A DNA stretch of 64,000 nt from Paramacrobiotus metropolitanus. Its lineage: Eukaryota; Tardigrada; Eutardigrada; Parachela; Macrobiotidae. The notes beneath the pieces were generated by a model. That model saw nothing but the letters and a program-made list of their open reading frames with translations. It was not told where the DNA came from and searched no databases. The translations under genes and the position numbers were made by a program. Where the stretch lies: the NCBI RefSeq assembly GCF_019649055.1, contig NW_026570221.1:2728001-2792000 (forward strand). The letters run 5' to 3'. Of the stretch, positions 23,738 to 59,019 are shown piece by piece; the first letter of the stretch is position 1, and each line of letters starts with the position of its first letter.

Positions 23738-25672
23738 TTAAATGACGTGCAAGTAGGCTTCCTGAGCAATCCACTCGTCCAGACGATCATTAATGCGGAA
23801 CCAACACTCGTAGCGACCGGCGTGTTCCCCACGTGACGCTGTCCACCTTCATCTTCGAAGCGCATCGACGCTGCTCATCCACACCAAATTGGAAGTGTCC
23901 ATTATAACCTCGCCGCGCGTCGGCCTTATCGGCTACATCCGGGATGGACAGGGCTATCAGCAAGTGGTTTCCCTTGCGCCAAAGAAAGCGGGAATGCAAC
24001 TCGCCGGGAAGGAAATTGAAGCGCACCGAACACACCATTTCGGCTGGGTCGCCGTAGCGAACGGTAACATTCTTCATGGGCGAATCGAAGACCTCGTGGC
24101 GGTAGAGGGTTGCGCTGACCCAGTAGCGTTGCGTTACCACCAGCTGTCTACCGTTGGCGTGTAGGCACTCGTAGAGACCGGTGGCAGCGTACGTGAAATT
24201 ATCTACGGCGATAAAGAACGCCCCAGTGTCCAGATCGTATCCGGATAGCCTCCTCGTGTGCCATTCAAAGTATTCTCCGGTGCTGACTTCGTTTGTGCAG
24301 TTGCAACAAGAATTCTTTTCCTTGGACGGTTTACGAATAGCTTTGTCCATCAAAATGTGAACAACCTGCCCGTTGTAGGTGAATCCCGGCAGCAGTAGGA
24401 CTCTGGAATCCTGTATGCAATGCCGACAAATATGCCTGGTTAGAACGGCAAAGTGTACTTAAATCATAAATGTAATTTGCTCCCCTGGAAAAATTACTTT
24501 CACTGGCACATAATGTATAAAATTTGAGCTAAGGAAAAAAGCAAAACTTGTTCGATGTTCTTTGCTCATAAAAAAAGACGGCCCTATCGACTCTGCGCCA
24601 CTCCAGATTGCATTGGCTTTTTCAGTGCTTTCGCTCTGTTATAAAACAAACTGCATAATGTGCTTTCTAGTTGCGTTCTGAAGCGCGAACCAAAATACAC
24701 CGGTCGAAGATACAGTCCTAGACTCGAGAGCACATACTTGCATGTTCTTGGTGCTGTTACACGGAATGAAGAGAGTGCCGCCTTCGGGCGCTCGAAGGAT
24801 CTCCGTCTGCGCGGCCACTCCGCTATGGGGAACCTTGGGGATGACTGACCGATTCCATATCCGTGTAGGTGCATGACGCCGTTACCGTTACGCCGTTTGG
24901 CTTCGTTCAAAATCTGGTTCACTATAGAGGAGATTATGATTACACGAAAAAAAAGTAAACACAACAACATGTTCTTTGTGCCAGCACACAGATACTCAAG
25001 AGAACCTTCGGTATGCAAATGCATGAAAAAAGCATCGTTTCTTAGGAAAACTAATTTCTGAAAAATAAGGGAGAATGATTCTGGGAACAAAGCACATACT
25101 GCGGCTCGTTGCACATACAATCCATTCATTTCAGATTCAGATTTAAAGTTAAAAAGAAAACTCTGGAAGAGCTTACAACACAAAGTCTGCGGAGCATTGC
25201 AGCAGCCAGTCAGAGAACCCCGAAGTTCGAAACCAGCTGGTAGTTATTGCTCTAGTGAGCCCCTCAAAGTTCCTATTCTTGTGGCTGTTTTATGATTTAC
25301 TTATGACTTAAGAAGGCAGGATGACGGGATTGATCTATACTCGTAGCGACCGAACAATCCGAAATGAACCTTGAGTCATAACTGGGCATCGCGACTTTGT
25401 CCGCCCCGGATCTCTACACGACCAGCATTACGCCGTGAAGAACGTTCGGATCAATATACAACACGAATCAACACGAATTAAAGCCGTACGTTACCAGCGC
25501 GACAAACTCTAGGCACACCCTGCCGCGACATATGAGAATACGGAGCTTTGTCCTACAAAAAGTGCGGCAACGTACGTCTCTTCACGCTGAGTTTGTTTTG
25601 CGTCGGGCAGCTGAGGCTTCCGATTAAGCAGCACAGGAAAATTGCACCAGCCGCTACGAGAACACGAGCCAT
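23738..25672 (-). pseudogene. Ig-family member C, three exons including signal peptide, frameshifted
   Basis: Exon 1, 25576-25672, encodes a signal peptide (MARVLVAAGAIFLCC) and a short mature start; donor GTACGT, phase 1. Exon 2, 24738-24921, begins after a TATAG acceptor, reads NQILNEAKRRNGNG and is 184 bp rather than 185. The missing base after the AEWP motif shifts the frame. Exon 3, 23738-24410, carries both Ig cores (NFTYAATGLYECLH; FLWRKGN; GVDEQRRC), but one extra G after VTW shifts the last 30 or so codons. Repaired on paper only as an alignment, the tail would match the other members. Two independent one-base shifts suggest a recent pseudogene, unless they are sequencing errors. This is the only member with a visible signal exon. 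Confidence 0.75.
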
Positions 25673-26095: not shown

Positions 26096-26103
26096 AAAAT
26101 AAT
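26096..26103. other. Left 8-bp target site duplication of the giant element
   Basis: AAAATAAT here equals AAAATAAT at 44864-44871. Each lies exactly six bases outside the shared TGGCTCAATC block of the inverted termini. Confidence 0.75.
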
Positions 26104-26214
26104 TAGGACTGGCTCAATCCGTACCAAGATCTTGCGTTGCGCGACAGTCGCGGCGTAGCTACCACTCTAACCCGCAACAGGCAGCAACAATGCTACCGTG
26201 ACTATCGGGCTATG

Positions 26215-26907
26215 CAGACGCAACGCCGCAACGGGCCGCAACAGTGCTGGCGTGTGTGCTGGCACTGGGCTGCCGCGACGCCGCAACAGCCGCGACACAG
26301 CTTATATGCCGCGACACGCCGCAACGGGCCGCAACAGGCTGGCGTGTGTGCTGGCACTGGGCTGCCGCGACGCCGCAACAGCCGCGACACAGCTTATATG
26401 CCGCGACACGCCGCAACGGGCCGCAACAGTGCTGGCGTTTGAGCTGGCACTGGGCTGCCGCGACGCCGCAACAGCCGCGACAGGTCTTATAAGCCGCTAC
26501 ATGCCGCAACGGGCCGCAACAGCGCTGGCGTTCGTGCTGGCACTGGGCTGCCGCGACGCCGCAACAGCCGCGACACAGCTTATATGCCGCGACACGCCGC
26601 AACCGGCCGCAACAGTGCTGGCGTTTGAGCTGGCACTGGGCTGCCGCGACGCCGCAACAGCCGCGACAGGTCTTATAAGCCGCTACATGCCGCAACGGAC
26701 CGCAACAGTGCTGGCGTTTGAGCTGGCACTGGGCTGCCGCGACGCCGCAACAGCCGCGACACGGCTTATAACCCGCGACACGCCGCAACGGGCCGCGACC
26801 AGTGCTAGCGTGTGTGCCAGCACAGGCTGCCGCGACGCCGCAACAGCCGCGACACGGCTTATAAGCCGCGACATGCCGCAACGGGCCGCAACAGTGCTGG
26901 CGAAAGC
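26215..26907 (+). repeat. Left subterminal array of 93-bp units
   Basis: About seven units of 93 bp, built from GCCGCAACGGGCCGCAACAG, GCTGGC(A/G), GCCGCGACGCCGCAACAGCC and CTTATATGCCGCGACAC. Because 93 is a multiple of three, frames stay open on both strands. That produces long but meaningless Ala/Arg/Thr-rich reading frames. GC content is far above the flanks. The opposite-strand counterpart is at 43735-44790. Confidence 0.9.
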
Positions 26908-28758
26908 CTGATGTTTACAAACGCCAACAACCGAGGGCCTGCACAATTTCGATTCAACCAAAATGACATACCACCTACGAGTAGAATGTTCCACGGTAGA
27001 TTTTATAAGTAATACAAGGCTTTACCTACACGTCGATGCCACCAAACCAGAAAACCGTATTAGCACCGAGTTACCGACCATTTGAAGTTCAGTTAGATAT
27101 GCTCGTGGAAGTAGGAAAGAAAGCAGACGGTTCGGTAAATAAAACTAATAAAACAGCGGAAAATTATCAGAAAAATCGGAAAAACTCGGTTCAAAAATGT
27201 TATTCAGTGTGCTGTGTGGATACTACAAAGCGATGAGTGTGTCGGAGCACTGTTTCAGCCGGAATACTTTGATCTGAGCAATATTTTAAGGGTGACATAG
27301 AGCTCCGACCAAAATGTCCGGGCTGGAGGAGTAGTCTGGCCCAAATGTCCGGCTCGAAAAAACTGCGAAAAGCATTAGGGCATTAAAAATTACAGTATCT
27401 CTGATAGACATCGAATCGACTACCCTTCGTCGGCTCAATATGCACGAAATCGTAAAACTGATGTGCCATTTTTCTGACATGGATACATTCGTTTTATTAG
27501 GAAAGGCTGAAATGCCAACGCTAACGTTTCCAACCTGAAGCATGATGGCTGCTACCATCACGCTAATGATGTAGCTATACCGCTAAAAGCAAGATCCCTC
27601 ATCTCTGTGTGTCGCGCCTATCTGCTGTTCAGCTTGACTGCCGTTCAGGATTGTAAGTCTATAGCAGCCGGGAAACAATAATTCCTAGCTCGAGAACGTA
27701 TTCCGTAGCACCCGCGACGACAGGAATAATTCAGCAAGTAATTTCGCTCATTTTTTGCTCATTCAAAAAGGTAAAGGGCTTATCTATAAATTGTTTCTCA
27801 GTCGCAAAGTTGATGCCTAGCAGTTGCTCTACATGCTTCTTGCTGGTTCTTATTTTTTTCTGGATTTTATGGCACTTTTGAAGATTAGTTCGACAAGAAG
27901 CGTTGCGATAAGGCAAGAAAAGTAAATTTAAAATGCTTCCAACGAACTATACAAGCAAGATACCGTGCACTGGGAAAAGGTGTTGCACTTATGTAGCAGC
28001 GAAGCGCGCGCAACCAGGCACGTTTCTTACATCAAACTGGCAAATTAGGAACAGGCCATCGACTTGCTGATAGTAGCAGTAGCTCTTAGCGCAATTTTCA
28101 ATGAAAACCCTCAACCGATATCTCGAAAGAAAGAAAAAATAATTTCTAGAATTTCGATACAAAAAAAGTTGTTCTTTAAGGGAAATGGCCCGGTACATAG
28201 CGTCCACAATGGTATATATACACTAAAACTTTCGCTTGCGCGCGCACTGACAGTAAGGTCGAAAGTCAACCAGTTTCAGGTTCATAGTACTTTCCCACTA
28301 TTTTAAACCAATGAGTGTAACCAATTTAAACCAATTTGGAGCTAGATCTGAAGGTTGTATGGTAAGCTAGAAAGTACTCATTAGCGTCTTTACAAATTAG
28401 AGGTTTGTTGCTTGATTTACAGGAGTAGTGATATAAGATTTTGGCTTGAAGGACAATTACAGCGGTGGTACATCCTAAATACTGCGCTAGAATGAAGGCG
28501 AAGACGCTGCTTCGTGCTTTATTTATTGAGTCAAACTAGACACTATTATACGAGTACCACCATGTATATCATGTATATTCGGCGACTGAAAATTTATGCA
28601 CGTCCTCGTGATGTTATTCACTTTGAAGAAAATTGAGATAAAAAACTGCAAACAAAATTTATAACCAGAACCTGCTTTGCAGACACTTTCATTCTAAAAT
28701 CCGTTTCCACGTAATTACCGTTCTTCTCAGATAACGATTCAGTTCATAATGCGGCGCG
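26908..28758. other. Interior of the giant element, no gene seen
   Basis: Between the left array and the PHD-finger gene I found no exon with support. The 3' untranslated region of the PHD gene must lie at the right edge. Confidence 0.4.
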
Positions 28759-31700
28759 CTATTCTTCGGCACACGCGAGACACTTGAAAGCCTTTTCCTT
28801 AGCGCTGGTCAACCTTCCCGTAACGCCTCCGCATTTCTTATGAAACACAAGACTGCAGGTTATACACGCAATTCCACGTTCCTTCGGACTTGTTGCCTTG
28901 GCGCACTTGGCACACTGCTAAATACAGTATTGCAAAATTTACACCAGAAACACTATTAGTAGGGTTTGGGCACTGACCTTTACTTCATCATCGCGCGAAA
29001 CAACTTCAACAAGTTTTGGTTTTTGCTTTTGAGGCCCAGAACCTGAAAACGACTGAACAATTCAAAAAAGAGATGTGGGGACTGCAAACTATAGCTAAAA
29101 TTAGATTGTGTTGGCACGATTTCGTTAGTACGACTGAAGAGCTCCGGTGCCCTTTAGCGCGCAAAAAACTTGGTTCTTTGTGGTTATGTTTGCCGGCAAT
29201 TACTATCCTGGATTAATTTTTTACCCCGGATCAAACGAAAAAACTAACAAACAAGCGTCTCTAATGCTAATTTATGTTCTTATAGTTTCTGTGAGACAAG
29301 TAAGTAGTTCCCTTTGGCTATTTCAACAAAATGATGGGTTCGAATGACGGCATTTTTGCAGTAATAAAGCATTTTGCTGCGAGCTGTATGCATTAACATG
29401 GTTTTACCGATGGCTTTTGCCGCTGTGTTCTATGTTCTAGTTCATAACAGGATAAAGGCGTCGCAAAAGGTCATAGAAAACCAAATAGTTCACAATCTAA
29501 ATTTATCATTTCTTTTAAGACTAGTACGTGAATCACAGTATAGACGAACAAATACGAATACGAGTATATGAATACGAATACGAGAATGCGAATACGAAAA
29601 ACATCGTAAGGGTGTCCTTTTATGTCTGACGCCTAGATGTCCATGGCTCATGCAACATCACCTGTTATGCAATGAATCATACCAAGTACTGTGCATCTTC
29701 ACAATATCTGCTCTGATTGCAAAATGTGGGAATTTACATTTAGTTTCGTTAAAGCGCAGTGGTGCTTGGTATATGGCCTTTCTTCTTACCTGTATCCACA
29801 AGTTTTCGCTTTTTTGCGGTGCCATCCGATTTCGGGCTCTCTGAATCAAGATTTAACTAGTTGTTATCACATTACGTAAGTATGACAGGAAAGGAACAGT
29901 TATGCCAATTACTTGTACCAATGTTATAGGCAAACATTGAGAGCTGTTTCATATAATAACCTGACAGCTGGTCGTCGGTGGAACTGGGCTCCTCATGTAC
30001 ACCGCGAGCACCGCCATCTCTCTGATCTGTTGGCGATGCAACACGTTCGGATGGGGAAACACGTCCGTGTTGCACAATGGGCTTCTCCGTTTCAGACCCC
30101 TCACCGCATTTCGAAGTTGACGGGGAGCTCGCAATCGTACTAGCTGAGTCTGTCTTTGATGCCGGCTCGCTCTGTATCGGTAATGCGGGCTCTGCGGCCT
30201 TGTCCTGCGGATTATCCGTGAGTGCTGGTGGAAGTTTCTCAGCAGATTGCGGTGGGTGGTCAATCGAATCAGCGGTCAAGCCCGAGATGCCTAGAAAATT
30301 AGGACAACCAATAAAAAATAATTTTATGTTCACGACAATCTTCAGTATTACCAAGAGTCGCGAATGATTTTACTGATTCCAGGTTTACAAGAAAGCCAAA
30401 ATTATTGGTGGAAGGCAGAGCAGTATCTGCTTTTAAGCATCCGGCTAACGATTGCCATGTACGAGTTTTTATCACCACAGAATGAAATTGATAAGAGTGA
30501 TAATAACATTAACAATATTGATAAGAGTTATGGGTGCATAAAACTTAACAGGAGTCAGTAGATAAAAAATTATTACTTCCATGTAAAGCAACGTCAAGAA
30601 TCTCGGGTTCCCGGTATAAAAGAATATGATGTAAAATTTCCCAAATTTAAAAGAAAGCTTGTAATTACTAGTAACGTTATAGCGCAAATCACCGCTGGAA
30701 CTTCTAGGTTTACTTTTTTATTCAAAAACAAACAGGCACGATACTTTTAAACCGTATCCACAGGTATTCGATAGCATAAAAAAACTTGCCGGTGGGCATC
30801 GCTAACTACTCGCAAGTCGTAATTATACTTCAGTGGTTTTTTCTGCGGATATCAGTGAAGTTGGTTTTCTCGATGTACCTTAAAATTTCAAAATCGGATC
30901 ACCATTTCTAAGTTAGCTGCAATACACAACACCATTAACAAAAGCACTGAAGACACGCCACGTACTCCAATGATCTACAACAAAGTACCGCCATACTAAA
31001 GCTGCTGCAGTTTTCTTTTACACGGCACAGCTCATCACGCGTATTGCGGTGAATGCAGTGACTCTGGTATAGTGGAAACGTGTAACATCTGCTGGGTGGG
31101 GGAGGGCTGTATCCATCAAAACGAAAAACCGAAAGAATGACGACTCGAGGGAGACATACAGTGAAACGTCCTAATCTTGAACCCCTCGGTAGTAATTTAG
31201 TTTTCAAGGTTAACAGATGTTTAGCGCTCAAAGTCATTGCACCTATGGGCGGTTAATCCTTTACGGGGTCCTTGTTCTCACGCACAGCTGGATAACTTTT
31301 ATAATATATGGTTTTTATCATGATACTTAGTTATTACATTTTAAAAGAGCGGGTTTGTATGACAGTCATAATTCAAAGAACTTATAAGTTCCTCGTCAGT
31401 CGGCCCAAGAATAACTGAGATCGTCATTTATTTACTCGAGTAGGAGCGGTCAGCTTGTCTGCAATGAATGCGTTTTGCAAGGTCATTTCCCGACACACTA
31501 ATAATCTCAACGGTATCGCAGCAAACATCTAGCGGCATTTCGAAAATTGTTCTGAAGCCATAACGGCAGCTGTTTCTTTATAAATGGCGAACACCTTGAA
31601 CACTGGCATTCCTTTACGTGTTGCTGAGCCGCTCTGTTCATGCTGTAGGTGGAGGTCAGGTTATTAAGAAACACTACCGTGGTACGTAAAGGAGTGCTTA

Positions 31701-32599
31701 GGATTCAGAGGTCGGAGGTGTTCAAGGTTCAGAAGTGCTCCCAACGTGATATGTTACGAGAATCGCCGGTACAAAAAATTCTGTTCAAAGCTGAGAGGTG
31801 TTCACCGACTGAGAGTATTCGAAGTCGCAGCTCACACAGTAAATGAAACTGGCCACTTAAGTGTATGGCGTCCATTAACTTATCACGTGAACGTCATTAC
31901 GACTACAATTATGATTTAAGCATTGCTTTTGTCATTTAAATGTATATCATCACAAATTACACCTCTGCCGGAGTCCTTACCTAACTGACGCATTAACTCC
32001 ACAGCATTTTTTGAAATGAGCTGCAGCGGAACGGCAGAGGCCTTGACGGGGCGACCGTCCAAACGTACATCCCGAGAAATTTCAGCGCTGTGAATAAGAC
32101 GTAAAGTTGGCAAATAACTGCTCAAAAAGCGCGCATCAATTCCTCTGGTTTTCAGGTTTGTCACAAAAGCGTCCTGCTTAAAGGCAAGGAAGGCCACTGC
32201 ATCTCCGCTTTTTGCCACTCCGTTTACAACTCGGACGTTACTCACAACCTAGCAACGCATTAGTGTTTCATAAGTAGGGCTTGCACCAATTATCTAACTA
32301 GCATTCGTATCACCATTACTGATCGTTAAAAAATGTCGTACCGTGCCTGGATCAGCTTTCTGGATAGCTTCTTCGATAATCAAGCTCAACTTAGTGGGAG
32401 CCGATGCGATCTGCTCTTCTTTGACATTAGGCGAAAGCGGCGTCTGAGGTGGTGCATGTTTGGGTTTAGGGTCGGGATTCTTTTGCCATTGGGCCGATTC
32501 TCTGCACATATCCTTCAGGACAAAGTGACGCAGGGCTTCCAGATTTACCCGTTTGTTAACATCCACCATCTCCAGTACCTGAAAGAGGCAACGGGGCAT
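28759..32599 (-). CDS. PHD-finger nuclear protein carried by the giant element
   Basis: Six exons join without a phase conflict: 32342-32599 (ATG at 32599, or an acceptor at 32578), 31981-32248, 29961-30290, 29790-29840, 28978-29042 and 28759-28917, about 376 residues. The N-terminal half is helical and charged with no family I know. The middle is Ser/Pro/Glu-rich and probably disordered. A basic KKRKLV motif follows, a likely nuclear localisation signal. The last exon encodes a PHD finger: C-x2-C, C-x2-C, FHKKC and C-x2-C in order, then the stop. PHD fingers read histone tails. The gene is divergent from the transposase, so it may be an accessory factor for targeting or regulation; that is inference. 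The first exon is the least certain. Confidence 0.65.
30291..31980 (-). other. Large intron of the PHD-finger gene
   Basis: About 1.7 kb between exons with a TTTTCTAG acceptor and a GTAAGG donor. I see no exon or element inside. Confidence 0.45.
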
Positions 32600-32639
32600 T
32601 ATGACAGCAGTATATTAAAGTTGATAGACTACGTGCCAC

Positions 32640-33290
32640 AACCGCACCCGGACAACTGGAAGTGTGACATTTCGCCGCACTCAAACTGGACGCGCGACTT
32701 TTCGCCGCCGGACATTCGGACGCTGGGACACTTCGATTTGGAACATCATGCTTTGTGACATTTTACCTTTGCGACATTTAGACGCAAGACGTCTGGTTGC
32801 GGACATTTCGTTTTGGGGAATTTTGAACGATGCGACGAATCGCCGCAAAATAATTCACCGCGCTTAATTGCTAGATTTTCAGTTTTTTTTTTGCCTCGTT
32901 CTTAGTTTTTCTTAGGTTTCCTTGTCTTTCTTAGGTTTCTCATGTTTCTTAGGTTTATTAGATTTTTTTAAGTTTTTTTCTTGGTTTTCTGAGGTTTCTT
33001 AGGGTTCTTAGGTTTCTTACGTTTCTTAAGTTTCTCGGGTTTTTTAGGTCGTTCGTTTAGTTTTGATTTTAATTTTTCCCTATTTGGACTCTATCAAATT
33101 AGCTTAGTTATCATTTATCTGATAGGCGAAATGTCGCTTCGTCGAAATATCCTTGCGGGGAAACTTGCTTGCGTTGAAGCGGCCATGCGACGGAAGGTCG
33201 CGCGGCGTAAAGTCCTACCGACGAAATGTTCTGCGACCAAAAGTCTTTCGCCTAGTTGTCCGCGGGGAAATGTCACGGTGCCGGCAACAA
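32640..33290. mobile_element. Word-repeat foldback element (GACATTTCGCC arms, CTTAGG core)
   Basis: The left arm (about 32640-32860) repeats degenerate GTGACATTTCGCCG-like words. The right arm (about 33120-33290) repeats the complement, GGCGAAATGTC. Both arms contain GGACAACT/AGTTGTCC. The core, about 32880-33055, is TTTCTTAGG repeats, as in the elements at 15465 and 48066. No clear target duplication was found, so the outer limits are approximate. It sits just upstream of the PHD-gene ATG. Confidence 0.6.
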
Positions 33291-33373
33291 CATGGCTCGT
33301 TTGTTTACTCAATGTACCAATCGTTTAATGTAGTGCATCGTAGCTTATGTTGCAACAAGGCAATTAGTTTATT

Positions 33374-34244
33374 TAAGGATGGTAATATCCATGAGAAAGC
33401 CTCTGGATATGGGATATATCCAAAACGTATCCGGATATATCCAGAAATATCTTGGATATATCATTTTCTATCCAGATATATCCAATAACATGTTTTTTTA
33501 TGAAAAAGCCTTAAGAATTTAGGTATTAAAAATAAAAGCATCATACAGTATACAAACAATCAACGCCAAATTTAGATATTAATTAGAAGGAAACAAGAAT
33601 TGCACTGGTTATACATACTTACTTCGACTTTTCTCGATAGTCGATGTTAGCGCAAGTTTAACTATACATCTTGAAAAATGGATCACCCGCGTATTTTAGT
33701 AATCCAATGGTAAAAAAATATCTGAATTAATTATTTGACGCCATTTCCGCCGTACCTCCAACATATGCTAACCATAGTTCCAGTGCGACCCTTTGTTGCG
33801 ACGGCTCCGAGTTTTTGATAAAATTTTGTTTCAGCAAAAAACTATTATTGTGATTTGCACATTTATGTATTTTGCGGAGACACCAATAGAACGTCAGATG
33901 TCATATTGATGTCTATGCAAAACTTGTTGATCTTGAAATATTTTGTTACTATCAGAATACTTGAATAGTTGGGCGATCCGTTTTTCAAAATATTTAGCAA
34001 ACTGATCTGTTGCTGAGAAAAGTCGAAACATGTACAGTAATAGTAATATTTAAATGCCTTTTCTGGAAAAAATATATTTATATAAGTCAGATCTGTCTTA
34101 TATCCGTCAATATCCTGCTGTATCCTTGTATCCACCAAATATCCAAAAATATCCGTATCTTTCGAGACAGCTCGTGATATGGATATGATATTCGGATATT
34201 TAAGCTCTGGATACACTTTTGGATATTGGATATTGCCATCCTTA
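33374..34244. mobile_element. 871-bp word-repeat foldback element (GGATATATCC arms)
   Basis: Termini TAAGGATGGTAATATCC and the inverse of TAAGGATGGCAATATCC are flanked by the 8-bp duplicate AGTTTATT (33366-33373 and 34245-34252). Both arms consist of many GGATATATCC-like words (about 33383-33490 and 34090-34236). The centre has no recognisable gene. It lies in the divergent promoter region between the PHD and transposase genes. Confidence 0.8.
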
Positions 34245-34345
34245 AGTTTATTTACTGCACTAGATGTAAAACAAACGCACATCATAGTGATCTCGCATGT
34301 ACACGCCTTCGGAACTAGTCACACACAACCGCACAGTGGAGGTGA

Positions 34346-34494
34346 GTTGCGATTAAGACACAGTATATTCTTTCAATGCCACGATCTTAAATGTCCTTGC
34401 GTTGTCCACGCCAAATGTGTAAGAGGTGGTAGCCTGATTAAAAACTTGTTGAGCAAAGCTTTACCTGATTACATTCGCACATTATCATTACCGA
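34346..34494 (+). other. Possible upstream exon of the KDZ transposase
   Basis: The plus strand contains a frame with CHDLKCPCVVHAKCVRGG, then an LLSKALPDYIRTLSLP segment. A zinc-ligand-rich N-terminus of this kind would suit a KDZ transposase. Using the weak donor near 34509 (CCG|GTCAAG) the frame could join the acceptor at 34979 and read into the first accepted exon. I see no good acceptor or ATG for it. Confidence 0.25.
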
Positions 34495-34984
34495 TGAATC
34501 CATGCGTCCGGTCAAGGAGTACTCTGGGGTAGAAAAGATGGCAACATAAGCACAATGCAGGAGTTTACTGGTTTCACAATTTTACTGGTTTTACGCAAAA
34601 CAATACTGAGAGCAGTAATTCTACCAGATCTTCCAGTTCTCTGCGATCCCGAAACGTGTTCTTCCGCTGTAATTTTATTCGTGCCGCATCTTTGCAATCA
34701 CGCGCACAAGAAAAACCTGACTGGCGCAACACCCTATGTGCTCTGTGTGTGTGAATGGAGGCGGCACACTACCGCTTGCGGTGTATGTAGCTGTGCGCGG
34801 CACATTAGAAGAGCGGCAGCGCCTTTGGTCTTAGGCAGTTGTGTGGTGTGCCTTTGCCGCCCTTTCCATAACTTTCTGCGTTGCATGCATGTAATCAGAA
34901 GTGGGATTTTACATAACCATACAGAGTTACTTAGAGATAGTTGAAACTTTAGATCTAAATGAACTTGTCATAATTTTTAGCGTT

Positions 34985-37900
34985 ATGGCGAAAAGAATCA
35001 ACCTGGACGCGAATTCTCGTGAGGCGTCCTCTTTTATGGCTGAAAAATATGGATTTCAAAATCTGGAGCGCCTGAAGATTTGTTGCGCAGCTGTACCGAG
35101 AAGTTTGCCCTTTCCTCGTCGACTGAAGGTGAGATGTCCTCACTCTGAATGGAGCTCTTTCGCTAGATAAATTTAAGTCGATAAACTGTTAAAATTTTTC
35201 TGAAATTCCTAATGCGTGCATTCAGAATGTTTGCATTTTTTCAATAATTAACTACCCAGGACGCATTTTTTGTGCTCAGATTAAAAAAATGGCAGCGTTC
35301 CCAGAAAAAAGAGAAACTATTTTATTATCGCTAATCAGCAAGCGTGATTGCGTAAACATGCTGGCTGTACGAGTATTATCGTATGTATTCAATATGATCG
35401 TAATAATTATGCTTGTTACTGCGTGGTGGGTGTTAAGTACACTTCGATAGGGGATTCCCGCGCCACTTTCTCCGTAGTGCTCCAGCAGATAAATCGGCGT
35501 TCCTTCAAGCAAGGACTTAACCAAACCCCCAGGTTGATTCTTGCCACTATCGTCTAACCGTAATGCTTGCTTTGAGTTTTTGGGTGCAATGGAAAATAAA
35601 GGGTTGCAGAATGAAGCCGATAGTTGTGGCAAAGGCAGACCACACAAGGCAGACCACCATTTGTGCAGGTTATTATTTCGGAGCAACGGCATAATCTCCC
35701 CCAGGCGACATGCCTCGCTTAAATGAGTATAAGGCGCTGAAAAAACGTGCTCTGAAAAAATAAGATAAGGCATTAAGAACTTCAGCCGTGCATTTTTTAA
35801 ACGATTCGAATTATTTTGATTTCAGATATTATCGGAAATGCTGGGGATGTCTAAGTTGTTAACAGACACCTTTCTGAAAGACTTCGAATCGTTTTCTCCC
35901 GCTTTTTTGGAGACTGGTCCTTTTGTTGCCCCATTCCAAGTACTGTGTCCACCAGTTGTCCATTGTCTGAAGGGCTGCGTATGGAAAAAGGGAGCTAACA
36001 AAGGCATGCCAAGAGTCTTGCAGTGGCACCGCGATCCAACCAATGTACGCCCGTAATCGTATTGTATTGTAAAAGTATTTGTGTTTTAAATAGTTCTTCT
36101 ATTTATTTTGACGATTTTATATGTATTTGTACACGTTTAACTTAAATATTCGACTAAAGCGAGTCGGATGTACTGAGTATATGATCAGGACGATCAGGAG
36201 AATTGAATAATACAAAAGGGTAAAACCGGACGCAAAAGGCAAAAGGGGCACCTATAAGAAATGCGGGTAAAAGGGGTGCTGATCGTCTCACCCAGTTAAA
36301 AATCTTAATAAAACAATTAGTTTTTCATTTTAAGTACTTTTCTAAGAATTGCACAACGATATCCTTTACGAAGCAAAACGTTTCTTGAGAAATGGTGCTT
36401 TGCGCCAAATGCACCCATGTGCGTCGCCGCTTTTGCTCGTCCACCGGCTAGACTGCAGCCGTTAGCTGCGTAGGTCTGAACATGGGAAAGCTTGGTTGTT
36501 TTGAAGAGTGTCAAAGGAATCAGACAAGATCACACTTCGGTGGCATCGTAAAGGGCTTTTGTCCAAAAATTTGCCTTTAATCGTATCAAATACAGAAGTT
36601 GTAAGAAATTTTAATGTAACAAAAACAGATCTTTTTGTATTAATTTTTTGTTTTAAACAGATAATTTTTGCCCACAAAATTTCCTTCCTCTTTTTGACTA
36701 GAAAAATTTCCTTCCTCCTTTGACCCCCCAAAATTTCCTTCCTAAAAATTTTCCTTCCTCCTTTTGACCACACAAAATTTCCTTCCTCTAAAATTTCCTT
36801 CCTCCTTTTGACATTGGCCCTTTCTTTACCAATTGTGTTTACGATACCCGACCACCTGGCCCTTAGATCAGCACGTGCTTAATATAATTCCAATCCAAAG
36901 AAATTCTATTGTTTTAAAGATTTAATGATTTCCAAGGAGAAAGCGGAAATTTGAGATCTCAGAGAAGCCAGCGCGGATACGATGGCTGATTAACAGGGCC
37001 CGGTCACCGGCTCCTGGCTCCGAAAAATTTAGTTTTTTGCGGGAAGAAAAAAAACCCTTTGGCATACTTTAAAAATCTTTTCATCGGCCATGGTTAAGTG
37101 GGCATGGGCCGCATGGCTAAGCTTAATTTTAGTTCATTAATACACACAGCACTATGTATTGGATTTGGGAATATCGTAATAGTGTATCGGAGAATGTCAG
37201 AGGTTTTGACCAGTACGTGTAATCAGCACTCGGATCCTTTTCAATTCTAAAATAACTGTTTAGCAAATCACCGAGAAGAATTATATAGAACAATACTAGT
37301 TTGTAATGGGAAAAGGGAAAGACGCCACGCCGCGATAGAGTATCATACGTCATGTGTGTTGGCACAATGGCAGTACGCGTTATCAGTACTCACTGGTTTC
37401 ATAATCTATGTTAAATTCTTCTCGATTATTAACAGGTAATTTTTGGAAGAACTAGAAAGGATCCGACTGCTGTTAACACGTATCTGTTGCAAAAATCTGA
37501 CGCTGTACGGTACACTATTACTGTATTCGCAATACATAGTGCTGTATGTATAAATTAACTAGAATTAGGTTTAGCCACGCCCCCGCCCATGACAGATGAA
37601 AAATTTTTTTAAGAGTACCCAAGGATTACTCTGACTTCCCGCAAGAAAATGAAATTTTCGGAGCCGGGAGCCGGTGACCAGGCCCTGGTCAACACAAAAG
37701 TCAACAACCGCTATACCAAGCTGAGCGTAGCACTATGCGTAGTCTTGTTGCAACCTTTGAATGAGTGTGTTTGCTCGATGGCTGTCTCACCTTTTCTGCC
37801 CAGTCACACGCGTTACTTTTCGATGTTGCATGATTCCGATGTAGCCAGTCGATGCTAGTACGCGCCATGGAGTAAAAGGTGCGATAGCTATCGTGGCAAC

Positions 37901-40900
37901 ATTGCTCTGAGTTCTTGATGAAAGCTGGCTGCGCGAGACGCATCCGCATACTGGCGACGTATGGAATACTGCCGCCAGGCTGCCTTAACAGCGTCTGCTG
38001 ACGTTTGATCCGAAATCAGCCATCATAATTATGAGCGCTGGCTCCCCTTAGAATTCAAAATTTTACTTTTCTCCAAGGGAATGATTTGATTTCCAAAGAA
38101 CATTATACAGATAGAGTTTCTGAGAATTCTAATGATACTTAGCACTAGCTGATCGGGGTGGCAGGTGGTCGAGTATGCCGTCGTTAGCTATTACCGCGCG
38201 CAAGATTACCCACAAATTATGAGGTTTTGTTTTGCCTTACGGTCAGCTAGCTGACTACACTTCAAAATTTAGGGCACTAATTTTAAGCTAAGGTTTACGC
38301 TTTGTTTTAGGTTACAATGTTTTGTGGCGCCGGAAAAATTGTTCACGGGTTAGCAGTTACACTAAGATGCCGAGGTTGCGGTTCCCGTTATTCCCCCTGT
38401 ACGTGGACGAATCGGGAAACGTCCACATATTCTTTTTACGATTCGGAGCAGCCATTCCTTGATATTTCCCAGAAAATATACGTTTGCCGAAAATTTGCAC
38501 TGGAAATCGTGAACAACATGTATGCGAAGGCTATTGTGTTTGCAGTGTTGCCGTTTAAAAACTGTTATTTATTTTTACTTCCAGATTCTTCAATCATGCA
38601 ACTTACGACGGTATTGCTGAGACCATGAGACACACGTACGGTTGGAAAAAATGTTAAGTCACATGATTTTGTTAAGAATTAATAAAACGTGAATAAACCT
38701 GACTTTTCTGATTGTTGTAGTGTTCTCACGAAAAACTGTAGCCGTCATCTTCTTACGGCATGAGATCGAATGCGACATTAGAGAGCGAAAGGTCACATAC
38801 CAGTTCGAGGAAAACAGAAGTGTGCTGCAGTACTTGGACACACGCATGGACAAAATTTTTACCAGCACCTACAACCACCGCTGTTCTGAAGCCTGTCTAG
38901 CAAAGCAGTGCGGAAGGATCTTTATTATGGACGGAATCTGGAAAGTCGTTTTTCGACATTGTATAGCAGAAGTAGAAGTACGTAACTGCCAGAACGGCGT
39001 GTTGATGCAGGAAGTAAACAGTTGTCCTTGAAAATGACTTTTAACACCCTTATTACGGTTCTGCTATTTGGGATAACTTGCAAGTTGCGGAGTTCCAGTA
39101 TCTTTTACGTACTCCTACAGACGCATACAATACTATCTTTACGTACAACACATCCCGCTTCCGACCCTTCTTTTGGACTGCCTACTATTTCTGTAATTCA
39201 GTGTGAGACAGGAGATCCGTCATGCTGTAGTAAAGTTTGTCGCGCATTTTAGTTCCCCTTCCGTTCCTCGTATTATTAGCGTTGCTTGATTTAACTAATA
39301 TACCAAATAGCAGTATCGGTGTGAGTCGCTTTAAAACTTCTTAGCACAGCGGTAAATACTGTACCCTAATCATGCACTTGAAGGAAATTTGTACGCTATG
39401 GAGCGACACGGTGCTGTATAGCCGGACGAACGTTCAGCCAATTCACGTTCTAACATGCACTAGCTGCAAGCCGTGTATGTGAATGGTGAATGCGGTCGTA
39501 CAAGTGCGTGTGGCTGCACTGTACAAATTTCCTTCAAGTGCAGGGTTAGGGTACAGTAATTAATTCGTGATTGCAGAACGATGTGATATTCTTTCAGAAT
39601 TTTGTGAAAGGGATCCCACTCGCAAACTTTCCATGCGTATGCACGCACTCGCCATCCGGAAAGTCACTGTACTGCAAGAAACACAGCCTCCTGGACCGCC
39701 ATACCGAGAAGGAAACCGATACCATTACAATACACATGGCAGGTTGGTTTTGGTTTGCATATTTATTATGGGAAAGAAATCATCATCAAGTCATCCGGTG
39801 TCGTTTTCTTGTTATCTTGCAACTACGAGAACAACTACACCTACATGTCTTGCTACACCAAAGAGAAGCCTGCCAAACATAAAACTTTATACGGGGACTT
39901 TCACTAGTGCGGTGAATTTTGGCATACGGATTTTATTGCATGTAGCTGGTTTCGTGCATAAAGAAACCGAATTCAATTTCTCATACAGAGGTTTTTTTAA
40001 AGTTGTTGAATTTGATCTTACTGCTTGTACCAAAGTGCTGTGGCCTTACAGGAGTGTCCAGAGCTTTACAGGCAAAAGCAACGAGCGACATCAACTCAAT
40101 TCTGAGCGGTGAAGTGGATGCTGAGACACCGGACAGCGATTGTCGAAAGTTTGATCCGAAGGCCGGTTGCAGAAAAAACAAAGGAGAAAACCAGCGCGGG
40201 CACTTGTATAGCCTGGGATATCTTTTCCTTGTGGGTCTAACAGGCCACATTTTCAGCTTTGCCCCAATCTACAGGTACACTTGATAATGTATTTACAGTC
40301 ACGTCAAACTGCACTGTTGATTAAGCATTTGTCGTCGAGATCAGCGCGTGGCGTAGTTGTAACTTGAGTTTAGAACCGACTCCTATCACTACATTATAGT
40401 ACAAGTATCTGTCTACTCCGCACATTACGACTCTCTAGTTTCCATGCTACTCTTTTAGGAAAAGTAGCTCGCGGCTTGGTCACCATCAAATGTTATGTAG
40501 CGCACAGTAAACTATTTTGCAATGACAAATGACATTGTTAGGCGGATAAATTCTGTCTGTATGCAACACGATGCAAAAGATCACGAACGTTTTTTTTCAG
40601 GGCAGAAAGCCTTGGACAAGTTTACCTGTTCGTCGTCAGCGCGCTTTATGATTTGCTGCAAAATGTTGCGCCGGAAGAATGGGACAACATTTTTGTGTGC
40701 TACGACAACATCTGTCAGCTCAATAGACTAAAAGCCGCAAGCGATCCTCTTCCTTTTCCGGTACCCTTCGACCAAATCTGGAACCGTGTGCCGAAAATTG
40801 TCGACGGACTGCATATTCAAAACCACAAGGATCCTAGATGCAAAGAGAAGTACCATCCTGATAAGTACTTGAAGAGCTATCCTACTGCCACTGAACGAAA

Positions 40901-41090
40901 CACCATGGCAGCAGAACAGACCTTTTCCTGGATCGCCAAGTTTAAGAAGCAATTAAATGCGATGAACAAGGCCAGGCAGGTTTTCTTTATCCACCGAATG
41001 ATAGTGCGAAGAAATGAGTACATGTCAAATTGTGTGGCGAAAAATATCCGCCCTTTTGGGGGTACGATGCGCACGTTCAAAGAAAAGTGA
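34985..41090 (+). CDS. KDZ-type (Kyakuja/Dileera/Zisupton) DDE transposase
   Basis: Eight exons join with consistent phases: 34985-35128, 35826-36044, 38311-38519, 38585-38652, 38721-39013, 39598-39742, 40052-40274 and 40601-41090 (TGA). That gives 596 residues without a break. Cys motifs typical of the family are present (LRCRGCGSRYSP; HRCSEACLAKQC; CVCTHSPSGKSLYCKKH). The proposed acidic triad is D284 in IMDGIWK, D469 in VCYDNICQL and E539 in AAEQTF. YRAESLGQVYLF precedes the second Asp, and VDGLHIQNH follows it. The first exon may not be the true start, since a TTTTTAG acceptor directly precedes the ATG. The 2.3-kb intron 2 holds a foldback element. An unbroken frame over eight exons argues for recent or current function. 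Confidence 0.75.
36690..36815 (+). repeat. TTCCTTCCTCCTTTTGAC word repeat, copy 1
   Basis: The word AAAATTTCCTTCCTC(CTTTTGAC) recurs about six times and ends in TTTTGACATTGGCC. A sister array with the same terminal phrase lies at 62085-62232, so this is a dispersed repeat rather than a local slippage product. It sits in an intron of the transposase gene. Confidence 0.75.
36994..37687. mobile_element. 694-bp inverted-repeat element in transposase intron
   Basis: Ends CAGGGCCCGGTCACCGG and the inverse of CAGGGCCTGGTCACCGG pair over about 50 bp. A further inner pair (around 37060-37190 and 37500-37610) extends the arms. No clean target duplication is visible: flanks are GATTAA and GTCAAC. It encodes nothing recognisable and is probably a MITE, possibly hAT- or PIF-related. 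Confidence 0.7.
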
Positions 41091-42089
41091 GCGGTAATAT
41101 GGGTGCGCAAGGCTATTTAGGTTTACAGTTGATTTATTAACCAGCATGATACAATACTTGGTTTCTTAATTTTTGACTTCTGTGCGATTACTTTCATGAG
41201 ATAAACCGCCTTAGTTGTTGTTCAGGTACATATATTGTGTAGACATGTTTGTTCTGTAACCTTGGTCTCACTCTGGACCTTTCCGTACTAAAATGTTTGT
41301 TTACCTCGGAGTGCAAGAAAAACCAAGTTTTCATTTGGTTGTTAAGGATGCTAATCGGCCATTTTACTGCATTCTGTGTTAGCGCGATCGGAGAAAGGCA
41401 TTACACAGATAAAAAACCTCAGAAACGTCACATATCGTATCACGCAAACAGACCTTTTAAACGGCATGATTTAACTGGACAGATCTACGTCTTTCTATCT
41501 GGGGTTCCTCGACATTAGCCAGCGATGTTTCAGCAACAATGTGCAATTTGCCTGCTCCGTTTTCAAACGCCAATGCACTCTGTAGAATCCTGTCGCGGAA
41601 TTTCAGGCATTTGCATAAATCAAGTCGAAAATATTTCTGTACTTAGTTTAGTAATATTTCTCGCAGTTTCCCAGTATGACCTTTCACTGCGGACCCGAAT
41701 AGGTTAAAATAAATTTAAAATAAGGCGGTAATCGGCCAGCCAGTTAAAGCCGGGATCGGGTAGTAGTAACTTTTAGAGGGCTTATAGCTGACCTTCCAGA
41801 CTGTGTCCTTCCAGCGAAAAATAACCATGGAAATTTTTATAAGCTGTTGACATTTGCGTGATTGGTGTTTGATGTGATGATCCCAAATGAACGTGCGCTT
41901 CTATAAATTTTTTCGAATGTTAAAAAGGCTGCAGGAAGATGGCGGTTAGTTAGCCAGCAAAGATAGCTAACTTGGAGATGATGTTATTGTTTTTCGAGTA
42001 TGAGACATACGGTTAAGTACAGGAGTTTTGTGTTGTGCCTGATATCTAAAAAGCAAGCGAGCTGGTGGAAAGATCGAAGAAAAATCCGA
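41091..42089. other. Region after the transposase stop
   Basis: This should hold the transposase 3' untranslated region. No further exon or RNA gene was recognised. Confidence 0.4.
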
Positions 42090-43357
42090 GGCAGGGAATA
42101 AAAGGTGGCAGTGGCATCTGCCACTGGCAACTGCCACTGCCCACTGGCAATTGCCACCGGCAGTGGCAGTTGCCACTACGCCTTCTGGGAAGCGGTAAAA
42201 GGTGTCAGCTGCCAGAAACGGTAAAACTTAGTTGTTTTCCTACAATAACGTCAGATTTCTCTGGAGCAGCTAATGCGCCCCGGTTATATCGGTTGAGAAA
42301 TAAACATAAAAACCACACTGCTCATAAAGACAATCGATTTCAGTATTCTGGTAAAACCTGAGAGACCTAGAGTAAGGCCTTACACATTTAAGAAACAAAA
42401 AAAGCATTATAAACTCAACAAGCTAAAAGGCAAAAAACTCAAAAGCTTCCGAAAACTGAAAAGATGGTACTAATTTCTAGTTACGGAGATGATTCTGGTA
42501 GTGGCAGCGGCAGCGGTGCTGGCAATCTTAGTGGCGCTGGTATTGGCCGTACAAAAGGCTAGTAGCGGCTGCCGTATCGCTGTCATACAGTTTGAATTTT
42601 GTCTTGTTTTGATGTTCATCCATTTTGGGTTGGAGGTTTTCTTCGTCTCTATGGTTACTTAAACGTAGTTAGATTTGGTTAATTTGACAGATATTTCTTA
42701 AGGTTCTTATGCTTGCTGAGGTTTTCGGAAGTCCTTGGAGCCCCAGGCCTTCTAGAAGTGTAAGTAAGCTATACTTCAGATTTGTTGCGATAAATAATGC
42801 TATTAAATAAAAAAAATTTTGCTTGCAGTGGACAGCGCAGTATAAGTTTATGTAGCAGTTCTACTTAACGTTAGCGGAGCTTTGACGTTTTTATACTTTT
42901 AAAGATAAGACACCCAGGAAGCCGATAAAAGCAGACTGGAAAAACGACAAACTGGTACTGTCATGGTTCCCATCTATCGGAGCATTACCAAAACCACTGC
43001 CAATCTCATCAACTTTTCCAGAACTTCCAACTAAAGAAAACCTAAGACAACCTAAGAAACAACCCTAAGAAAACTAAGAAAATTGCCAAACCTGAAGGAT
43101 CCAAGTACTCGTAGATTGCTGGCTGTGGATAAATACGCCATCATTGACGATTGATGACAGCCAAACAGTTTCCACCTTCTTTGGAGCTTATTCGGTTGAG
43201 TTCTTGTTTTATCTGTCGTGCTAAAATAACTTTACGTGGGATTTCTGGTTTCTGGCAACTGCCACCTTTTATCGCTTGCCAGAATACGTGGTGGGAACTG
43301 CCACTGCCGGTGGCAGTTGCCAGTAGCAGGTGCCACTGCCACCTTTTATCCTACGCC
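42090..43357. mobile_element. 1.27-kb word-repeat foldback element (TGCCACTGGCA arms)
   Basis: Inverted ends of about 130 bp begin GGCAGGGAATAAAAGG and GGCGTAGGATAAAAGG and consist of palindromic TGGCAGTGGCA/TGCCACTGCCA words. The 9-bp phrase AAAATCCGA occurs directly outside both ends (42081-42089 and 43358-43366), so an 8-9-bp target duplication is likely. The core contains CCTAAGAAA repeats (about 43020-43085), the complement of the TTTCTTAGG core of its relatives. No gene is visible inside. Confidence 0.75.
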
Positions 43358-43734
43358 AAAATCCGACAAAGCAGTGCCTAGATGAACCTGTCGCCTGCGC
43401 TAAATGTGTTTAATCGGACCTTGTGGGATTGGTTGCTTAAAAAGAGACATAACGTCGTGGCCAGTGGTTTACGAACGAGATTTTATTATAAAAGGCAGAT
43501 GGGACCATCAGAGGTTCCTTTACAAGATCGCAAAAGGAAACGTCATCCATTTTATCAGTGCCACCTGTCATACTGCATAGGTCACATAGCCTTCACTGAA
43601 AAACCAAAGGGAACTGTACCAAACTAATTAATAAGACCTTCGTCAGCCATGTTCGCCCTGTGGCGGCTTATATGCCGTGTCGCGGCTGTTGCGGCGTCGC
43701 GGTAGGGCATTCTGACAGCCTTGCTAGCACTGTC

Positions 43735-44790
43735 GCGCCCTGTCGCGGCTTATATGCCGTGTCGCGGCTGTTGCGGCGTCGCGGCAGGCTGCGCTAGCAC
43801 ACACGCTAGCACAGGTCGCGGCGCGTTGCGGCATGTCGCGGCTTATAAGCCGTGTCGCGGCTGTTGCGGCGTCGCGGCAGCCTGTGCTGGCACACACGCT
43901 AGCACTGGTTGCGGCCCGTTGCGGCGTGTCGCGGGTTATAAGCCGTGTCGCGACTGTTGCGGCGTCGCGGCAGCCCAGTGCCAGCTCAAACGCCAGCACT
44001 GTTGCGGCCCGTTGCGGCGTGTCGCGGCATATAAGCTGTGTCGCGGCTGTTGCGGCGTCGCGGCAGCCCAGTGCCAGCACGAACGCCAGCACTGTTGCGG
44101 CCCGTTGCGGCATGTAACGGCTTATAAAACCTGTCGCGGCTGTTGCGGCGTCGCGGCAGCCCAGTGCCAGCTCAAACGCCAGCACTGTTGCGGCCGGTTG
44201 CGGCGTGTCGCGGCATATAAGCTGTGTCGCGGCTGTTGCGGCGTCGCGGCAGCCAGTACCAGCACGAACGCCAGCACTGTTGCGGCCCGTTGCGGCATGT
44301 AACGGCTTATAAGACCTGTCGCGGCTGTTGCGGCGTCGCGGCAGCCCAGTGCCAGCTCAAACGCCAGCACTGTTGCGGCCGGTTGCGGCGTGTCGCGGCA
44401 TATAAGCTGTGCCGCGGCTGTTGCGGCGTCGCGGCAGCCCAGTGCCAGCACGAATAGCCCAGTGCCAGCTCAAACGCCAGCACTGTTGCGGCCCGTTGCG
44501 GCGTGTCGCGGCATATAAGCTGTGTCGCGGCTGTTGCGGCGTCGCGGCAGCCCAGTGCCAGCACGAACGCCAGCACTGTTGCGGCCCGTTGCGGCATGTA
44601 ACGGCTTACAAGACCTGTCGCGGCTGTTGCGGCGTCGCGGCAGCCCAGTGCCAGCTCAAACGCCAGCACTGTTGCGGCCGGTTGCGGCGTGTCGCGGCAT
44701 ATAAGCTGTGCCGCGGCTGTTGCGGCGTCGCGGCTGCCTATGTCAGCAGACATGCCAGCACTGGATGCGGCGTGTCGCGGCATATAAGCC
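43735..44790 (-). repeat. Right subterminal array of 93-bp units
   Basis: About eleven units, the reverse complement of the left array. Sub-variants differ at CCGGTTGCGG versus CCCGTTGCGG and at ATATAAGC versus TTATAAGAC, and these alternate in a higher-order pattern near 43960-44700. One unit is interrupted around 44450, where AGCCCAGTGCCAGC is repeated after a partial unit. Long frames across it are artefacts of the 93-bp period. Confidence 0.9.
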
Positions 44791-44863
44791 GTGTCGCGGA
44801 CTCTGGTCCGCAACGAGACAGTGACGGTTAAAGCCGATCTTGGTACAGATTGAGCCACTTCTG

Positions 44864-44871
44864 AAAATAAT
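44864..44871. other. Right 8-bp target site duplication of the giant element
   Basis: AAAATAAT, matching 26096-26103 and lying at the same six-base distance from the conserved inner part of the terminus. Confidence 0.75.
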
Positions 44872-47325: not shown

Positions 47326-47991
47326 TTAAACGACATCCAAATAGGCCTCCTGAACGATCCATTCATCCAAGCGATCGTTGATGCGGAACCAGCACTCGTA
47401 CCGACCGGCGTCTTTCCATGTGACGCTGTCGATAATCATCGTCGCATTGCACTGACAGGGCTCCCCCTCCCCAAACTGAAAGGTGAAACCATAAGGCAAT
47501 CTGACTTTATCCCTCATCGCCGGAATGGACTCGGCAAGCAACAGAACATTTTCCTTGCGCCACAGAAAGCGAGTAACGAGGTATCCGGGGAGGAACCTAA
47601 AGCGGACCGGGCATACCATCTCCGCTTTATCGCCGTAGCGCACGGTGAGGTTCTTCATGGGCGGATCGAAGACCTCGTGGCGGAAAAGGGTGACGCTGAC
47701 CCAATAGCGCTGCGTCACCACCAAATGGCTACCGTTAGAGTGCAGGCACTCGTATAGACCCGTAGCGCCGTACGTAAAATTCTCCACCGCGATGGTAAAA
47801 GCGCCGGTTGCCAGGTCATAATTTCGCACTCTCATCTTGTGCCGAAAAACTTTGTTCCCGGAACTGAAGTCACTTGAGCAGTTGCAACAATAATTCTCTT
47901 CATTGGACAGTCTTCTGGGTGTTTTTGAAATGCTATTACCAACTTGCAGTCCGTTATATGTGAGTGACGGCGGAATCCCGGTTTTGGACAC
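47326..47991 (-). CDS. Ig-family member D, intact C-terminal exon
   Basis: An uninterrupted 222-codon terminal exon. The acceptor is CACACAG and the stop TAA is at 47326-47328. It encodes the end of Ig domain 1 (NYCCNC; NFTYGATGLYECLHSNG), a linker (FDPPMKNLTVRYG) and a complete Ig domain 2 (AEMVCPVRFRFLPG; FLWRKEN; VTWKDAGRYECWF), ending EAYLDVV. N-glycosylation sequons are present. Its own N-terminal exon is missing: the DNA up to the next gene holds a foldback element 75 bp upstream of the acceptor. The phase-0 acceptor would accept the donor of member E's exon at 50091, so D may be an alternative last exon of E. Function is unknown; secreted or surface recognition is plausible. Confidence 0.7.
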   Translation of the reverse strand: MSKTGIPPSLTYNGLQVGNSISKTPRRLSNEENYCCNCSSDFSSGNKVFRHKMRVRNYDLATGAFTIAVENFTYGATGLYECLHSNGSHLVVTQRYWVSVTLFRHEVFDPPMKNLTVRYGDKAEMVCPVRFRFLPGYLVTRFLWRKENVLLLAESIPAMRDKVRLPYGFTFQFGEGEPCQCNATMIIDSVTWKDAGRYECWFRINDRLDEWIVQEAYLDVV

Positions 47992-48065
47992 CTGTGTGCA
48001 GTGCCGACGATCAATCAATTATAAATTCACAAACAGTCACTTTTAAGAGTAAGCGCGCTTCTACT

Positions 48066-57861: not shown

Positions 57862-58159
57862 CTGTTTGGCACCGTGCAACTCTGACAGCTCAGAGTCAGC
57901 CGGTCTGCCGTTTGAAGAATTAATGGAATTTTGTTGTTTTGACCCGGCATTATGCCAACTGGGTCACCGAGTTTCGGCGTCGATGACGCTGATTTTATTC
58001 TAAACGGTATTCGTGAAGGATTTCGTATTGTTAATGATTGGAATGCAATCGGGCCAGCCGATTGCAAGAATTACCCCAGCGCTCTTAGTGACGAGACAAA
58101 GCCAGTCTTGGATAGGCTTTTTCGCGAAGAGCTGCAAGTAGGTCGCATTAAGGAGCAGA

Positions 58160-58726: not shown

Positions 58727-59019
58727 GCTACCAGTTGACAAGCTTGAGAAACTGTTGTGTTTGGTTAAAGTTCATCAAGAGGCAAAGTTCATTTCAAAAA
58801 AGAACTGCAGGTTAGTCACATGTCGTTTGCATCCAAAGCGATTTATGGTGCCCGTACTTTCTCAAGAATCTTTATTGATGAACTTTCTCTGCTGAAGAAG
58901 CCTTGGCAAAGTGAAGGTCAACCGGCTTTTACGCCACGAGCTGCTTTGGTGGAGCAGCTCGCTTCCGATTTTAACGGCCTTTGTCCGTGCCCATTCGGTG
59001 TTCCTCGAACACTGGTTAC

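Follow-up and report, generated by a model that had tools for sequence, protein, structure and literature searches.

Is the long stretch that lies between two copies of an 8-bp word in the genome of the tardigrade Paramacrobiotus metropolitanus a complete transposon, and how could an element of such length unite its ends and carry its genes in either direction? The window analysed here, a stretch of 64,000 nucleotides from contig NW_026570221.1 (positions 2,728,001 to 2,792,000), is part of contig C1 of the 169.8 Mb in 533 contigs that constitute the analysed genome, and the element occupies its positions 26104-44863. This genome contains 34 wnt-family exon matches, spread over seven contigs, and wnt genes being animal genes, it appears on that evidence to be animal DNA. 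It is a real, nearly intact transposon copy within a giant two-gene family. Most probably, this is a family of giant cut-and-paste KDZ transposons with a left end (LE) and a right end (RE), with subterminal arrays that dock the transposase, and with a gene block that is inverted by recombination between the arms.

The element measures 18,760 bp and is flanked by two copies of AAAATAAT. Its two tips of 28 nt each are alike at 24 positions and different at four. A preliminary description of this DNA had proposed a near-intact transposon with exactly this duplication and inverted termini with four mismatches, and the tips, arrays, duplication and two open genes are all borne out (Table 1). A 22-base tip core has two matches in the window at up to three mismatches, compared with a maximum of 0 over 100 shuffles.

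Empty sites were found for the window copy and for a 1.6-kb copy on contig C247. The window flanks, joined over a single AAAATAAT and used as a query with 187 first-look candidates, 40 of them scored, matched at least 47 places in the genome. Among those scored, 44 of the 47 matches cross the join, mostly from query positions 373-384 to 482-494, the remaining three being the two window flanks themselves and C44:14949. All six empty-site homologues that were fetched align through the junction free of gaps, the duplicated interval itself being diverged. Because the joined-site homologues run across the junction, the window element is, to judge from these alignments, inserted into a dispersed host repeat. 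The joined site of the C247 copy gave 26 satellite matches with 2-3 mismatches, none of them exact. As a separate observation, the left flank and the terminal CCCAAAAC are common to this copy (C247:47022-48903) and a long copy, C9c (C9:859555-860554), which can be read either as a satellite site hit twice or as a single insertion followed by internal deletion; with flank and duplication in common, the two may also be alleles of one insertion, both lying within satellite.

Termini of the same kind recur across the genome. A search with the core pattern at up to three mismatches returned 68 matches, versus 0 with the reversed pattern as control, and these fall into two types, LE (mostly TAGGAC or TAGAAC; n=38) and RE (mostly CAGAAG; n=30). 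When a pair is defined as inward-facing termini on the same contig less than 40 kb apart, 21 pairs are obtained, and every one of them joins an LE to an RE, for which the chance is about 5e-7 under random pairing of types; a single RE (C171) is common to two of the pairs. The possibility raised in the preliminary description, that the two termini are never found paired, thus does not hold, and the further copies with these termini for which it proposed a search are present. An exact in-register 8-bp duplication accompanies 10 of the 21 pairs. In two further pairs (C9:1847505 and C60) all eight bases agree once displaced by 3 or 1 bases (25 offsets tried), and among non-partner LE x RE combinations, which served as control, an in-register 8-bp duplication occurred in 2 of 1119. 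Pair spans range from 0.3 to 29.8 kb, short copies included. Among the 15 transposase matches of closest identity (at least 67% over most of exon 8), 13 have a matching tip within 25 kb on their contig, and most transposase matches of lower identity are positioned away from these tips.

Several individual copies show peculiarities of their own. The loci C335:22518-31765 and C104:428975-429472 have transposase exons with 69% identity to those of the window, on contigs where no tip was found within three mismatches, and the C335 locus also holds a divergent second-gene exon; both may be copies with other or lost ends. Three short LE/RE derivatives on C17, C90 and C245 (1192, 301 and 397 bp) have the same outer flanks and no 8-bp duplication, and are perhaps carried inside another repeat. 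In the C171 copy (C171:5900-15899) the left array and the second-gene exons are duplicated internally, and an LE tip accompanies each set. An extra LE tip at C9:874734 lies inside C9c, exactly at the end of its homology to the copy C38, and represents a family member nested within a family member. The copies C35a and C35b contain no KDZ transposase matches and carry other long open reading frames (ORFs), by eye hAT-like in both and Gypsy-like in C35a, which are possibly nested insertions.

The transposase gene (34985-41090, plus strand) consists of eight exons with GT/AG borders and without a stop codon, encoding 584 amino acids (aa). The exon borders of both element genes were predicted from sequence alone, using splice signals, the continuity of the open frames and the conservation seen among relatives. 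The unbroken eight-exon frame of the preliminary description therefore stands, its length of 596 aa being replaced by 584. In profile searches, CxC5 (PF18718) matches aa 84-208 above its cut-off (41.4 bits versus 26.9) and likewise exceeds the cut-off in C56 and C38; the match of the KDZ domain itself (PF18758) to window exon 8 falls just under the cut-off (E 3.4e-5; 24.1 bits versus 26.6). The KDZ assignment is supported through other loci of this genome: those on C65, C129 and C515 lie above the PF18758 cut-off and show similarity to exon 8 (E 3.3e-20, 4.0e-40 and 2.3e-27, respectively; 36-41% identity), and this chain of matches is the deciding one. D284 is invariant in the seven copies that cover the position, and D457 and E527 are invariant in 15; we take these three residues as candidates for the catalytic DDE residues. 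Pairwise ratios of nonsynonymous to synonymous substitution rates (dN/dS) range over 0.03-0.16 in the transposase and over 0.07-0.59 in the second gene, and because many dS values exceed 1 and are saturated, pairs without a computable dS were left out and stop codons were dropped, they are not informative on which copies are intact. Both genes have been under constraint, according to these ratios, the second less so.

The second gene (32599-28759, minus strand) comprises six open exons without a stop codon and encodes a protein of 376 aa whose C-terminus forms a PHD-like finger, in agreement with the intact PHD gene proposed earlier; the PHD match is weak and below the Pfam cut-off (PF00628, E 2.4e-4; 21.5 bits versus 24). 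The KKRK stretch in exon 4 is presumably a nuclear signal. Among the 12 long copies that were read completely, transposase exons are present in eight, the second gene in ten and both in seven, and in all seven the two genes are divergent. Of the 16 genome matches to accessory exon 2, 15 are found inside a copy or no farther than 10 kb from a family tip or transposase, the exception being C121:113236.

Just inside the termini, the window copy contains the two oppositely oriented 93-bp arrays that had been noticed at the outset, and arrays with a main period of 81-94 bp are found in both arms of all 12 long copies. Over these 24 arrays the motif CCGC[AG]AC faces inward 1407 times and outward 0 times, at densities of 1.9-6.2 per 100 bp. 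The longer GCCGC[AG]AC, counted across the whole outer kilobases of eight copies, faces outward 0 or 1 times per end. Array arms are 0.3-4.6 kb long, the arms of the same copy show a mean tile identity of 0.84-0.97, and a copy's own partner arm is the best match in 10 of the 12 rows of the comparison and likewise in 10 of its 12 columns. The array unit core has 161 genome matches at up to one mismatch, and the 100 of these that were listed are located on six contigs, each no more than 18 kb from a recognised tip. For the motif, a strict helical phase of 10.5 bp was weighed and not adopted, given same-strand distances that peak at 9, 28, 19, 48, 20 and 46. Each unit of the window left array contains a TTATA core, and these units might act as promoters.

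Relative to the tips, the gene block occurs in both orientations. In the window copy the transposase points to the RE, and this unflipped state is found in five two-ended copies (the window, C171, C38, C7b and C1:375265), the flipped state in seven (C7a, C60, C44, C56, C35a, C35b and C58). Within this tally C1:375265 and C56 are without a duplication, that of C60 is shifted, and C35a and C35b are alike and perhaps not independent; the other pairs, in which no gene is readable or the gene content was not read, stand outside it. One-ended copies also occur in both states, unflipped (C92, C150, C63) and flipped (C9c, C121, C27). The transposase of C7a is 92% identical to that of the window in exon 8, and the two copies are colinear over much of the interior, all those matches being inverted relative to the tips; the stretch inside the window RE array corresponds to the stretch just inside the C7a LE array. 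Furthermore, C9c is inverted relative to C38 over 9486 aligned bp with 98.7% identity. Its interior starts at the inner edge of the C38 RE array, the switch lies inside the array, and its LE tip is that of C38 with few differences. As far as the assembled sequence can be read, this flip is recent. On the exon-8 tree, from whose 15 copies two without known orientation were dropped, at least six orientation changes fall among the remaining 13 copies (shuffled mean 4.57), and four among the nine two-ended copies with a transposase (shuffled mean 3.21). Orientation is, on this tree, without phylogenetic inertia.

In the mechanism that we propose, the transposase, and perhaps the PHD protein too, would dock on the CCGC[AG]AC arrays and thereby bring the two ends together. 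The unlike tips would be recognised by the transposase as a pair, with an LE and an RE both required for excision and insertion. Since the arms lie in inverted orientation and stay similar in sequence, they would recombine homologously and so turn over the gene block of about 3-27 kb, and as ends and docking sites would be unchanged by the inversion, mobility would be independent of gene direction. The interior is thus probably turned either way because the arrays near the ends allow flipping. The PHD protein may, as a guess from its domain, steer insertion or counter silencing via chromatin. Inversion in place, inversion during repair after excision and inversion in the assembly only are all compatible with the present assembly data.

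A number of observations weigh against this reading, beginning with the KDZ domain. PF18758 remains below its cut-off for exon 8 alone, six of ten family exon-8 ORFs match it at E<=0.01, and none of five spliced or part proteins does so at E<=1. The AlphaFold models are too poor for a fold search (mean predicted local distance difference test, pLDDT, of 48.1 for transposase exon 8 and 55.1 for accessory exon 2). Nine of the 21 pairs are without a duplication, including two counted in the orientation tally (C1:375265 and C56), and 41 of the 68 termini are paired, the other 27 having no inward partner on the same contig within 40 kb. The array rule is not followed by the six short copies (0.3-1.6 kb), among which only C247 and C142 have arrays: C134, C17, C90 and C245 hold at most six motifs in all, each, and in C142 an array reaches beyond the midpoint, which leaves its motifs outward-facing at the opposite end. 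In two rows and two columns, within the C56/C7b and C35a/C35b groups, an arm of another copy is the better match. The kilobase inside the LE array of the window copy is unmatched in C7a or C171, which leaves one boundary of the inverted block out of sight there, and the RE end of C9c was not found. Finally, the orientations are known from the assembly, and assembly software could turn over a segment bounded by inverted arrays.

Long inverted arrays are a known weak point for assemblers, and the arms considered here, which reach 4.6 kb in length and are up to 0.97 alike within a copy, come from assembly sequence only. That the element is real and its flipped interiors are assembly errors at these arrays is still unlikely: no N occurs in any of the 12 fully read long copies, contigs of up to 4.48 Mb suggest long reads, and both orientations are present in each main part of the tree, even where one arm is shorter than 0.6 kb (C44, C60). 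An appreciable, if low, chance must be given to flips that are real and that arose through aberrant transposition or end exchange between copies rather than from the two arms of a single copy recombining, as interior inversion and exchange of both tips yield an identical map and end capture is known in other elements. The greater closeness of same-copy arms compared with between-copy arms in most cases (10 of 12), as repeated within-copy exchange predicts, and the position of the C9c switch inside the array argue for the arms of one copy.

Two ancient lineages of opposite gene order, from which the orientation differences would have been inherited, are very improbable. The sample is small, and C92 and C150, near-identical in exon 8, do share the same orientation; C38 and C9c, however, are identical across 483 exon-8 sites and opposite in orientation, the window copy and C7a as well as C7b and C56 are close yet opposite, and the observed orientation changes are not below those of the shuffles. 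Lineage-inherited gene order was rejected on the C38/C9c pair and the change counts of the tree. The 93-bp arrays are satellite-like in appearance, and a host satellite into which genes have fallen, with no transposon involved, would account for that; such an origin is almost certainly wrong in view of the duplications, the empty sites and the proximity of the unit-core matches to tips, and this last point, among the matches listed, led to its rejection. Recombination between the arms of one copy, the preferred source of the flips, may also be extended to a built-in inversion switch, in which the block flips in place and often, perhaps with transposition, so that the element would be a phase-variable animal transposon. 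We regard this extension as doubtful, and its corollary, that the end faced by the transposase gene sets the activity of the element, shares that doubt when both are taken together.

Outside the element, four minus-strand ORFs of the window (16048-16665, 23790-24458, 47326-48018 and 49027-49761) are alike by eye and lie on both sides of it. Two of the four match an immunoglobulin (Ig) domain, the ORF at 47326-48018 above the PF00047 cut-off and that at 49027-49761 weakly. They are probably a tandem Ig-like gene family among whose members the transposon inserted. Farther along, plus-strand ORFs with consecutive matches to reverse transcriptase (PF00078) and tyrosine recombinase (PF00589), each under the cut-off, give the interval 58142-60465 the look of a DIRS-type retroelement.

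Table 1. Coordinates of the window copy and its parts, in window positions, with the basis of each entry.
Feature	Position	Strand	Basis
Target-site duplication (8 bp), left copy, AAAATAAT	26096..26103		empty-site homologues: interval single, letters different
LE tip, TAGGACTGGCTCAATCCGTACCAAGATC	26104..26131	+	among 38 LE-type tips of the genome
Left subterminal array, 93-bp unit repeated 7.3 times, CCGC[AG]AC pointing inward	26223..26902	+	tandem-repeat and motif count
Accessory exon 6 (PHD-like finger, C-terminus)	28759..28917	-	frame and Pfam
Accessory exon 5	28978..29042	-	frame
Accessory exon 4 (basic KKRK stretch)	29790..29840	-	frame
Accessory exon 3	29961..30290	-	frame
Accessory exon 2 (conserved N-terminal region)	31981..32248	-	frame and genome matches
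Accessory exon 1	32342..32599	-	open frame, splice signals
Transposase exon 1	34985..35128	+	open frame, splice signals
Transposase exon 2 (CxC5 region begins)	35826..36044	+	frame and Pfam
Transposase exon 3 (CxC5 region)	38311..38519	+	frame and Pfam
Transposase exon 4	38585..38652	+	frame
Transposase exon 5 (D284, candidate catalytic Asp)	38721..38977	+	frame and copy comparison
Transposase exon 6	39598..39742	+	frame
Transposase exon 7	40052..40274	+	frame
Transposase exon 8 (KDZ domain; D457, E527)	40601..41090	+	Pfam and copy comparison
Right subterminal array, 93-bp unit repeated 10.9 times, in opposite orientation to the left array	43741..44771	-	tandem-repeat and orientation
RE tip, CAGAAGTGGCTCAATCTGTACCAAGATC (minus-strand reading)	44836..44863	-	among 30 RE-type tips
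Target-site duplication (8 bp), right copy, AAAATAAT	44864..44871		adjoins RE tip

Several of these features have counterparts in published KDZ elements, as far as the excerpts of the cited sources describe them. Active fungal KDZ elements measure 9-11 kb and have 8-bp duplications, and KDZ1 of Cryptococcus, of about 11 kb, has 241-bp terminal inverted repeats (TIRs), an 8-bp target-site duplication (TSD) and CxC1 (PMC12810828). Zisupton of fish also has an 8-bp TSD (PMC12730594), and animal Zisupton elements are multi-exon (PMC9297572). KDZ elements rank with the largest transposons of the cut-and-paste type, with a giant of 30.3 kb in Ectocarpus and an active one of 31.7 kb in Chlamydomonas, and accessory genes of fungal KDZ elements are in print (PMC12477816). 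CxC5 has been termed KDZ-associated, and in Pleurotus it does not adjoin KDZ (PMC7641404). For two Kyakuja families, an absence of TIRs and 7-bp TSDs are described (PMC12730594); the 8-bp TSD and TIRs of the present family speak against a placement among them. Shared with the known elements, on these accounts, are the KDZ transposase, a CxC zinc cluster, TIRs, 8-bp duplications and giant size. The same descriptions set the present family apart by its tips, which are 28 nt long and of two fixed unlike types, by long-copy arms that are tandem arrays of an inward motif, by an accessory gene that is PHD-like and not TET/JBP, and by an interior in both orientations. Among the titles and abstract openings listed in literature searches, none pointed to a PHD gene, arrays inside the ends or an interior that inverts in any KDZ element, which leaves absence unproven. 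Giant size and accessory genes are thus already known for KDZ elements, and the PHD-like partner, the inward arrays and the flipping interior are apparently new.

Tandem repeats within inverted arms, here the 93-bp arrays, are also a feature of Galileo, a member of the P superfamily in Drosophila. The excerpted accounts describe them inside its long TIRs, where two hold binding sites for the THAP domain of the transposase that are proposed to gather it (PMC3688188), and report Galileo copies to be prone to ectopic recombination (PMC4168063). The docking of the transposase on the arrays is proposed here along the same lines. Galileo inversions, in these accounts, concern chromosome segments between copies, whereas here the interior of one copy is turned. 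In a Pfam scan of both element proteins, THAP, a feature of Galileo and P, gave no match at E<=1. Many short transposase-binding motifs inside the ends characterise En/Spm (CACTA) and similar elements, and CCGC[AG]AC, a putative binding motif, resembles them in number and position. En/Spm elements have 5'-CAC tips and 3-bp duplications in the excerpted description (PMC12730594), whereas the tips here are mostly TAGGAC or TAGAAC and CAGAAG, and the duplications are 8 bp long.

Docking arrays combined with unlike LE and RE ends may show how very long elements unite their ends, a question on which the excerpted sources give no account, and the dense one-way motif arrays are directly testable for protein binding. 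A turning interior separates the identity of the ends from the orientation of the genes and suggests concerted evolution of two arms within a single mobile element. The family thereby constitutes a natural assay for inverted-repeat recombination in an animal, in which the rate and timing of flips can be measured from near-identical copies of opposite state such as C38 and C9c.

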